Of a stretch of 61,344 nucleotides of DNA, positions 1 to 20,431 are shown in pieces (position 1 is the stretch's first letter; every line of letters starts with the position of its first letter). The translations under genes were made by a program, and so were the position numbers. The notes below the pieces were generated by a model. That model saw only the letters and a program-made list of their open reading frames with translations. It was not told the origin of the DNA and did no database searches. Source of the DNA: Endomicrobium sp. (lineage in GTDB: Bacteria; Elusimicrobiota; Endomicrobiia; Endomicrobiales; Endomicrobiaceae); NCBI GenBank assembly GCA_031263865.1, contig JAISEY010000003.1, forward strand, positions 1 to 61,344. The letters are read 5' to 3'.

Positions 1-545
<545 letters not shown>

Positions 546-15353: not shown

Positions 15354-15773
15354 TTATTCTAAATTATCTTTTACCCTTATAATCTTGACTTTATCTAAAA
15401 TTCCATTTATAAATTTACGAGAATCTTTTGTTGAATATTTCTTTGAGATTTCTATTGCCTCATTTATTATTACATTAATTGGAGTAAAATTAAAAAATAT
15501 AATTTCATAAATAGCAATACGTATAATATTTCTATCAATAACTACCATTCTTTCAATATCCCAATTTTTTGTATATTTTTTAATTATTGAATCTATATAT
15601 TTTTTTTTGTTGCACACACCGAAAAACAAATCCATTGTAAATTTTTTATAAATGTCATTTTTAGGCATTTTTTTTATAAAAGCATCACATACAGTTTTAG
15701 TTGATTCATTGCAATTATCAACAACATATAACATCTGAAGAGAACATTCTCTTGAATATCTACGAGAATTCAT
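15354..15773 (-). CDS. nusB: Transcription antitermination factor NusB
   Basis: SRRYSRECSLQMLY N-terminus, INEAIEISKKYSTKDSRKFINGILDKV. Confidence 0.9.
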   Translation of the reverse strand: MNSRRYSRECSLQMLYVVDNCNESTKTVCDAFIKKMPKNDIYKKFTMDLFFGVCNKKKYIDSIIKKYTKNWDIERMVVIDRNIIRIAIYEIIFFNFTPINVIINEAIEISKKYSTKDSRKFINGILDKVKIIRVKDNLE

Positions 15774-15815: not shown

Positions 15816-16814
15816 TTAATACATAAAATTAAATGATTTAACACTAACATTAATTTTATTAAATCTCAGTATTTTAATAAATTTTTCAATAGTTTTTTCA
15901 TTCGATGATTTAAATTTTGAATTTAAATAATTATCTAAAACAATTAAATTAATTTTAACATTCAAATTTATAAGACCACAACGTTTCAATAATTTTGACA
16001 ATTTCCGTGCATCAATTACAGAATCATTTATATTTTCCAAAATAAAATAATTTATTATTAATATAGATCCTGTTTTATTAATGTAACGTTTGCATATATT
16101 AAATGAATCTTCTATTTTAAAAATAAAATCTTTTGAAATTATTTTTTTTATTTGTTTATCATCAGTACCATATAAATCTATTGAAAATTTAACACGAAAA
16201 TTATAACTCATAAGTTTTTTAATAAATTGAATATTAAAAACTGTTGAAAGTATTATTCGTTTCCCACTAATTCCTAATTCTTTGTTTGATAATATTGAAT
16301 GTAATAAACTAATAATATTAGTAAAATTAATTATTTTTTCACCAACACAAATCGAAATATCTGTAATCTTTTTATTTGTATCATTCTCAACTTGTAAAAT
16401 TTGTTCTATTATTTCACCATTTCTCAAATGTCTTTCATATGTTTTTTTTTTTTTAAAACAAAAAAAACATTTTTCTGAACATCCAATTTGAGATGACAAA
16501 TATATAAAATTTTTATTTTTAATAAACGAAAAAATTGAAGAAAAACATCCACCAAACGATGAATAAAATATATACTTAATTTTTCTTTCAACTAAATATC
16601 GTTTTTTATTTTTTATTATTAATGATCTCAAAAAAAAATTATTACTAAGATTTTTTCTTATTCCAACAGGAATATTCTTAAACTTTTCAAAAGAATCAAC
16701 TTTTTTATTATAAATCCACTCAACAATTTGAATTAATCTATATTTACAATCAATATGAGTCTTAATTTTAGTTTCTAATTCTTTAATATTAAGATCCAAT
16801 ATATACTGCTTCAT
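15816..16814 (-). CDS. RlmN-family radical SAM protein, divergent and lacking the RlmN catalytic cysteines
   Basis: SSQIGCSEKCFFC (cf. RlmN SSQVGCxxxCxFC), RNGEIIEQIL; C-terminus ends before the usual DIxAACGQL. Confidence 0.85.
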   Translation of the reverse strand: MKQYILDLNIKELETKIKTHIDCKYRLIQIVEWIYNKKVDSFEKFKNIPVGIRKNLSNNFFLRSLIIKNKKRYLVERKIKYIFYSSFGGCFSSIFSFIKNKNFIYLSSQIGCSEKCFFCFKKKKTYERHLRNGEIIEQILQVENDTNKKITDISICVGEKIINFTNIISLLHSILSNKELGISGKRIILSTVFNIQFIKKLMSYNFRVKFSIDLYGTDDKQIKKIISKDFIFKIEDSFNICKRYINKTGSILIINYFILENINDSVIDARKLSKLLKRCGLINLNVKINLIVLDNYLNSKFKSSNEKTIEKFIKILRFNKINVSVKSFNFMY

Positions 16815-16847: not shown

Positions 16848-17411
16848 TTATTGTAATTTTTCCATGTATGATATATTATGTAGACATACTGGGCATATTT
16901 CAAAAGCATTCTGACTTTCATATACATATCCACAATTTCGACATTTCCATTTTACAATATCTTTATTTTTAAAAAATCCTGTTTCAATTCTTTTTATAAG
17001 TTTTAAATATACTGATTCATGATATTGTTCAACAACAGCAATTTTTCTAAAACATTTTGCAATATCATGAAATCCTTCCTTGTCAGCAATAGTAGCCATA
17101 ATTGGATAGATTTTAGTATATTCAATATTTTCACCAATTGCCGCAGTTTTTAAATTATCAATAGTAGAGCCAATTGTATCAACATCAAAAATGTTTTTAA
17201 TTTCAATACTCCCTTCATCTAAAAAACTATAAAACCTTTTCGCATGTTCTTTTTCATTACCAGCAGTTTCAGTAAATACAGATGAAATTTGTTCAAATCC
17301 ATCTTTTTTTGCTATAGAAGAAAATAAAGTGTATTTCATACTAGCACACGATTCTCCAATAAATGACTTTAATAAATTTTTTTCTGTTTCAGTTTTTTTT
17401 ACTGATGTCAT
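16848..17411 (-). CDS. rbr: Rubrerythrin
   Basis: FIGES, NEKEHAKRF, GENIEYTKIYP, VEQYHESVY, rubredoxin-like WKCRNCGYVYES...CPVC. Confidence 0.96.
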   Translation of the reverse strand: MTSVKKTETEKNLLKSFIGESCASMKYTLFSSIAKKDGFEQISSVFTETAGNEKEHAKRFYSFLDEGSIEIKNIFDVDTIGSTIDNLKTAAIGENIEYTKIYPIMATIADKEGFHDIAKCFRKIAVVEQYHESVYLKLIKRIETGFFKNKDIVKWKCRNCGYVYESQNAFEICPVCLHNISYMEKLQ

Positions 17412-19170: not shown

Positions 19171-20226
19171 TTATTCTTCAAATATAAACTCGTAATTACA
19201 TATTTTAACAGTATCTCCAATTTTAATACCTTTTTTTTTTAATTCTAAATCCAATCCAATTTTTTTTAAAATATTTTGATATCGTTTCAATGATTCATGT
19301 TCATTAAAATTTGTCATTTCTGTAATTGTTTCAATTTTTTGTCCAGTTACAATAAAAATTCCATTTTTGTCAATATCAACATTGAATTCTTGTTCATAAA
19401 TATATTCTTTAACATCAAAATTAGAAACATTATAATCAAAACATTCAGTATATTTATTTAGTTTTTTTAATATTTCATTAAGTAAATTATTGATACCATA
19501 TCCATTAATTGATGAAATTTTTATTATTTTTTCGTAACGAAAATATTTTTTTATCAATTTTATACGCTTTTTTATACTATATAAATCTATTTTATTTAAA
19601 ACAATTATTTTTTTCTTTTTTTCAAAACAATCAGAATATTTCTTCAATTCATTATTAACAATCATGTAATTATTATAAATATCGCTAATTGAACAATTAG
19701 AATCAATAACATAAACAAGAACTTTTGTTCTTTTTATATACCTTAAAAAATCAAATCCAAGCCCTTTGCCAATATGTGCATCTTTAATTATACCAGGTAT
19801 ATCAGCAACAATAAACCGTTTATTCATATAATCAACAGTACCTAAGTTAGGAACTAAAGTTGTAAAAGGATATTCAGCAATTTTTGGATTTGCATTAGAT
19901 ATTTTTGCTAAAAGAGTAGATTTACCAGCATTAGGCAATCCGATAAGACCAACATCAGCTATAAAGTGTGGTTCAAGATCAATGATAGCAAATTCACCTC
20001 TTTGACCATTTTCTGAAATTCTAGGTACAGTATTATTTTTTGTTTTAAAAGAATAATTTCCTCTACCACCTCTACCACCTTTAACAATCAAAACTTTATC
20101 ACCTATTTTTTTTAATTCTGTAAAAATTTTATTGTTTTTAAAGATAATAGTTCCAAATGGAAGTTTTATATTTATATCATGTCCTGATTTTCCTGTTTTC
20201 TTGTTAAGAAAACCCCCTTGAACCAT
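19171..20226 (-). CDS. obgE: Obg GTPase, main part (Obg-domain end, G domain, OCT domain), frame 2
   Basis: GLPNAGKSTLLAKISNANPKIAEYPFTTLVPNLG; VADIPGIIKDAHIGKGLG; VLNKIDL; OCT C-terminus; continues the 20204..20431 frame after a +1 shift. Confidence 0.93.
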   Translation of the reverse strand: MVQGGFLNKKTGKSGHDINIKLPFGTIIFKNNKIFTELKKIGDKVLIVKGGRGGRGNYSFKTKNNTVPRISENGQRGEFAIIDLEPHFIADVGLIGLPNAGKSTLLAKISNANPKIAEYPFTTLVPNLGTVDYMNKRFIVADIPGIIKDAHIGKGLGFDFLRYIKRTKVLVYVIDSNCSISDIYNNYMIVNNELKKYSDCFEKKKKIIVLNKIDLYSIKKRIKLIKKYFRYEKIIKISSINGYGINNLLNEILKKLNKYTECFDYNVSNFDVKEYIYEQEFNVDIDKNGIFIVTGQKIETITEMTNFNEHESLKRYQNILKKIGLDLELKKKGIKIGDTVKICNYEFIFEE

Positions 20227-20431
20227 CTTCTGCTTTAAACTTAGATTTATACTTAATATCTAAAAAATTGTAATTTTTTAAATCGACAACTTCAAAATAT
20301 ATACTACCACCACTCCCACCATTCCCACCATCTGGACCACCAGATGAGATATATCTCTCTCTTCTAAAGGATATACATCCATCCCCACCTTTACCAGCAG
20401 TAAGATATAATTTATATCTATCTATAGACAT
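20204..20431 (-). CDS. obgE: Obg GTPase N-terminal part (glycine-rich Obg domain), frame 1
   Basis: LTAGKGGDGCISFRRERYISSGGPDGGNGGSGGSIYF...FKAEDGSRGF then TAA. Confidence 0.93.
   Translation of the reverse strand: MSIDRYKLYLTAGKGGDGCISFRRERYISSGGPDGGNGGSGGSIYFEVVDLKNYNFLDIKYKSKFKAEDGSRGFS

Follow-up and report, generated by a model that had tools for sequence, protein, structure and literature searches.

In the radical SAM enzyme RlmN, Cys355 (E. coli numbering) is the methyl carrier and Cys118 resolves the adduct, and Glu105 of the E. coli protein has been described as strictly conserved (PMC9692996, PMC5130265). Binding by RlmN remodels the anticodon arm of tRNA (PMC5130265). Most Mollicutes have lost RlmN (PMC4014445). 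Among other enzymes that modify RNA, TrmA is a tRNA chaperone, a TruB that lacks activity can make up for a truB deletion in coculture, and one key catalytic residue is absent from a bovine mitochondrial homologue of Trm2 (PMC11301382).

Here we describe an open reading frame that descends from rlmN but encodes neither catalytic cysteine. It lies in a 61,344-nucleotide stretch of an Endomicrobium assembly (the window), at 15816-16814 on the minus strand, and it encodes 332 amino acids from an ATG start to a TAA stop. An earlier note, made from the letters alone, had called it an RlmN-family protein without both catalytic cysteines. Its ORF position, motif description and coordinates are correct, and both the RlmN descent and the loss of the cysteines are confirmed by a profile match, alignment and gene order. 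The match to the RlmN profile TIGR00048 spans nearly all of the protein (185.9-186.2 bits, E 1e-54), with a score below the equivalog cut-off of 290. The N-terminal RlmN_N domain (PF21016; residues 5-59, 16638-16802) scores 31.7 bits against a cut-off of 24. For the radical SAM domain (PF04055, cut-off 29.5), the score is 28.5 bits on the protein and 29.2 bits on the genome, or 29.5 with neighbours.

On the same strand, the adjoining gene upstream encodes rubrerythrin (rbr, 16848-17411) and the adjoining gene downstream is nusB (15354-15773), which starts 42 bases after the rlmN stop. The order rbr-rlmN-nusB-ligA is common to the window and to a relative with a 444-kb genome (G032). Another relative, G063, has rlmN-nusB-ligA in the same order, with rbr about 3 kb upstream. 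In a tree of RlmN proteins, the protein groups with its genus, on a branch of 1.83 changes per column (the median end branch is 0.15). Support for this placement is modest (89/88, with the node drawn open), so our claim of orthology rests on synteny. The assembly, which is incomplete (249,549 bp), yielded no second rlmN, and tblastn found no viral relatives. The ORF is the native rlmN and not an extra copy.

We took E. coli residue numbers from an alignment with the structure 3rf9. Tyr105 (codon 16500-16502, in FIYLSSQIGCSEKCFFC) stands where E. coli has Cys118, as the earlier note had read it; the alignment includes relatives as well as 3rf9. Just downstream, the [4Fe-4S] motif SSQIGCSEKCFFC (16458-16496) retains all three cysteines of the CxxxCxxC (C112, C116 and C119) and all nine of the residues that are invariant in the genus. 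A run of 13 A on the coding strand (T on the plus strand; 16442-16454) has a length that is in register with the relatives, so it does not shift the frame. Two further changes that the note had pointed out are also borne out by the alignment: ICVGEKI replaces FMGMGEP (16332-16352), which retains Gly158-Glu159 without the proline, and SIDLYG replaces ALSLHA (16167-16184), in the region of E. coli Ser233 and His235. Asp294 (15933-15935) is found where E. coli has Asn312. Finally, the protein ends in VSVKSFNFMY, and the TAA stop (15816-15818) comes ahead of the segment that bears Cys355. The note had proposed this as well, and had allowed that another frame might restore the segment; we found no AACGQL in any of the three frames read across the stop.

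These changes are unusual for RlmN. Cys118, Cys355 and the GEP motif are retained in all 24 of the other genus sequences that we aligned, including the one from the 444-kb genome, and both cysteines are kept in all 80 of a set of diverse RlmN loci from many phyla. The protein retains 49 of the 86 residues that are invariant in the other 24, while each of the other genus sequences, left out in turn, retains 87-100% of the invariant residues. We found no relative with the same variant, and the best match in the genus is 44% identical. We take the proline of GEP, the Gly-Glu pair, Ser211, Ser233, His235 and Asn312 to be the positions at which RlmN contacts SAM. Compared with E. coli, the Gly-Glu pair and Ser211 are retained along with the three cluster cysteines; the positions lost include Cys118, the proline of GEP, Ser233, His235, Asn312 and Cys355.

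Loss of Cys355 removes the methyl carrier and loss of Cys118 leaves the adduct with nothing to resolve it, so the protein is very probably unable to make m2A at A2503 or at A37 of tRNAs. The earlier note had suggested that AdoMet cleavage may persist. The substitutions make this less likely, as the positions of Ser233, His235 and Asn312 are changed in addition to GEP.

Two other signs of loss were considered and rejected. At the position equivalent to Glu105, intact RlmNs (L021-L049 and L223-L231) that retain Cys118 and Cys355 have Phe, Pro, Ile or Ser, in a survey of this genus and sampled relatives from the order and class; G057, which belongs to the phylum but is more distant, retains the glutamate. 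Because Glu105 is also absent from these intact proteins, we do not consider its loss to be part of decay. Similarly, tRNA-His and tRNA-Gln(UUG) have G37, not A37 (the position that RlmN methylates in E. coli tRNAs), in the window's genome and in G063 and G032. Relatives with intact RlmN have G37 too, so we do not attribute it to the loss of RlmN.

A structure prediction compared with E. coli RlmN, which the earlier note had proposed as a check, matches the RlmN fold. The AlphaFold2 model is confident and RlmN-like (pLDDT 85.7), and RlmN structures are the closest class (TM 0.85-0.88; 0.87 to 3rf9), in a prediction that draws on intact RlmN relatives in its alignment. The prediction for an intact relative has an equal confidence profile and a weak cluster loop too. 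We rejected the model's confidence as a sign of damage, as the loop is poor in both proteins (60 in this protein and 66 in the intact relative). An RlmN fold is plausible for this protein, and the model is silent on its activity.

The host genome is strongly reduced. The assembly comprises 249,549 bp in four contigs, the main contig has a GC content of 23.7%, and the 43 genomes of our genus comparison set range from 0.25 to 1.4 Mb. The assembly is truncated (66.7% complete by markers), with many tRNAs missing and an incomplete 23S rRNA gene (window 1-542, minus strand), of which about 550 nt precede the end of the contig. The bacterium is probably host-associated. The range of genome sizes, the low GC and a gene content that seems to be anaerobic are like those of the Endomicrobia that live as symbionts in termite flagellates (PMC11257099), and our guess is that it is one of them. 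Some other genes in this genome have apparent changes of frame. The obg gene (window 19171-20431, minus strand) occupies two overlapping frames. Its first 74 codons stop at a TAA that follows EDGSRGFS; the remainder resumes one base later, exactly in register with the Obg of a relative. The gene may have a real lesion or a +1 frameshift at the stop codon, or the assembly may be wrong here. The equivalent of a 770-amino-acid protein of G032 is apparently split by a frame change (G000:C2:77376-79674), and this ORF contains a 19-base homopolymer. Our list of internal stops in the genome is uncurated; it is mostly short ORFs, and those that we examined are mostly antisense.

Several members of the genus have no rlmN. 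Whole-genome searches found none in G017, G018, G029, G030 or G036, whose nusB loci show no remnant either. The interval between rbr and nusB is about 170 bases in G030, where rlmN is cleanly absent and nusB is intact. G062 has rlmN fragments with stops. As several relatives lack it, rlmN is dispensable in this genus. Since the genus readily discards rlmN, an intact but disarmed copy implies either late relaxation or retention for another role.

Under late relaxation, the gene would be dying: its function is lost, constraint is relaxed, the ORF is merely unbroken so far, and deletion lies ahead, as has already happened in several relatives (cleanly in G030, or with stop-bearing fragments left behind in G062). 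Its rate of evolution is as expected from relaxed selection. Among 158 three-way orthologues, RlmN has the second-longest branch to the window's genome (0.72, versus a median of 0.30), and its GC at codon position 1 is the third lowest. At sites common to G063 and G032, the protein retains 50% (the median is 79%), which ranks 5th from the bottom of the 158, and retention differs little from one conservation class to the next (57, 48 and 45%). However, this account has to explain 332 codons without a stop or a frameshift. When the ORF is shuffled, the result has 37 stops on average and at least 20 in every case, so the open frame is not due to chance. We also simulated mutation under the genome's four-fold composition, rejecting stops and leaving residues unconstrained, up to the observed divergence. 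With typical intact homologues as the starting point, the mean number of stops proposed was 24-26 (minimum 10-12); with G032, the most diverged intact homologue, the mean was 14 and the minimum was 4. (This is a simple mutation model, and we take synonymous sites to be saturated.) The simulated substitutions were less conservative than the observed ones (P ≤ 0.017). Also, the protein retains 31 of the 40 invariant residues up to residue 145 and 18 of the 46 beyond it (Fisher p 0.0004, or 0.0095 without the deleted tail), and G032, although diverged, has no such split. Simulations did not reproduce this contrast (P ≤ 0.007) and rarely retained all nine invariant residues of SSQIGC..C.FC (P ≤ 0.01), although we picked both the motif set and residue 145 as the dividing point after viewing the alignment. 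Because the simulations call for many stops, seldom keep the cluster motif and fail to give the contrast between the two parts of the protein, neutral decay fits poorly with the open frame and its pattern of change, and we consider a dying gene to be somewhat unlikely. With moderate confidence, we conclude that selection still acts on a folded protein, and mainly on its first 145 residues.

That selection need not be on the protein if the frame is kept for the sake of the neighbours, as a nonsense codon in rlmN would expose nusB and ligA, which lie downstream, to Rho-dependent polarity. We did find rho in the genome, and nusB follows rlmN on the same strand after 42 bases, but evolution that preserves only the frame fails to give conservative substitutions or the contrast at residue 145, and relatives such as G030 dropped rlmN while nusB stayed intact, so we think that polarity is very unlikely to be the reason. 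It is even harder to believe that the gene is an artefact of sequencing or assembly, or a chimera. The 13-base homopolymer within the ORF and the two frames of obg in the same window make this worth considering; on the other hand, the ORF keeps its frame and its register over its whole length, its changes are many separate substitutions, and its neighbours are syntenic. The earlier note had offered a repurposed radical SAM enzyme or a decaying gene, and neither is shown; the best fit is a selected protein without the methyl-transfer chemistry. If the enzyme were repurposed, the cluster would cleave SAM and the radical would serve another reaction, one independent of both cysteines. Retention of the three cluster cysteines, the Gly-Glu pair and Ser211 and the predicted radical SAM fold are consistent with this. 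The changes at Ser233, His235, Asn312 and the proline of GEP are not, there is no added domain, partner gene or motif, and the PF04055 score is at its cut-off, so we view a repurposed enzyme as improbable. A broader version, in which a former RlmN with its [4Fe-4S] cluster is selected in a minimal genome for a new role (a radical SAM reaction that dispenses with the two-cysteine methyl relay, or cluster-dependent RNA binding), also seems unlikely to us, if less so.

We tentatively favor a different explanation over both gene death and the repurposing of a radical SAM enzyme, namely that the native rlmN of this reduced and probably host-associated bacterium has become a pseudoenzyme. The protein has lost both catalytic cysteines and several residues of the SAM pocket while keeping the cluster motif and an open frame, and its evolution is fast but does not look neutral. 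m2A synthesis would be gone, and selection would retain a folded, cluster-bearing protein. It may still bind RNA via its N-terminal domain and the surface of its barrel, and could then be a non-catalytic helper in folding or assembly, like TruB or TrmA. We have low confidence that non-catalytic RNA binding is the retained function, which we suggest by analogy. Several observations count against a pseudoenzyme: the second-longest branch of 158, which is what relaxed selection would give, the dispensability of rlmN in the genus, and our failure to find a sister genome that has the same variant.

We found nothing relevant in the open-access literature on inactive RlmN in endosymbionts or on radical SAM pseudoenzymes; catalytically dead enzymes are an expected kind of thing in reduced genomes. 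If selection keeps the protein although it no longer catalyses, then this case would be evidence from nature for a role of RlmN besides making m2A, a question that knockouts left open because their phenotypes are mild. It would also imply that a minimal genome can retain a radical SAM scaffold past the loss of its signature chemistry. If the gene is merely dying, then it is a well-placed snapshot of the loss of rlmN, in a genus whose other members have already lost it.

How does this putative pseudoenzyme compare to known systems? TruB and TrmA offer a parallel in that they are RNA-modifying enzymes whose binding matters apart from catalysis (PMC11301382), but their folds are unrelated to that of our protein, whose RNA binding is only putative. 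Cfr (TIGR04432; structure 9p0p) shares the fold and the cluster motif. However, the protein matches the Cfr profile less well than that of RlmN (109.7 bits, versus an equivalog score of 550), and it lacks both of the cysteines that Cfr requires. The protein differs from RlmN (TIGR00048; E. coli structures 3rf9 and 3rfa) in the absence of Cys118 and of the Cys355 segment, in the changes to GEP, SLH and Asn312, and in its score of 186 bits versus 290, but it resembles RlmN in genomic position, sequence, N-terminal domain, radical SAM barrel, CxxxCxxC motif and predicted fold.
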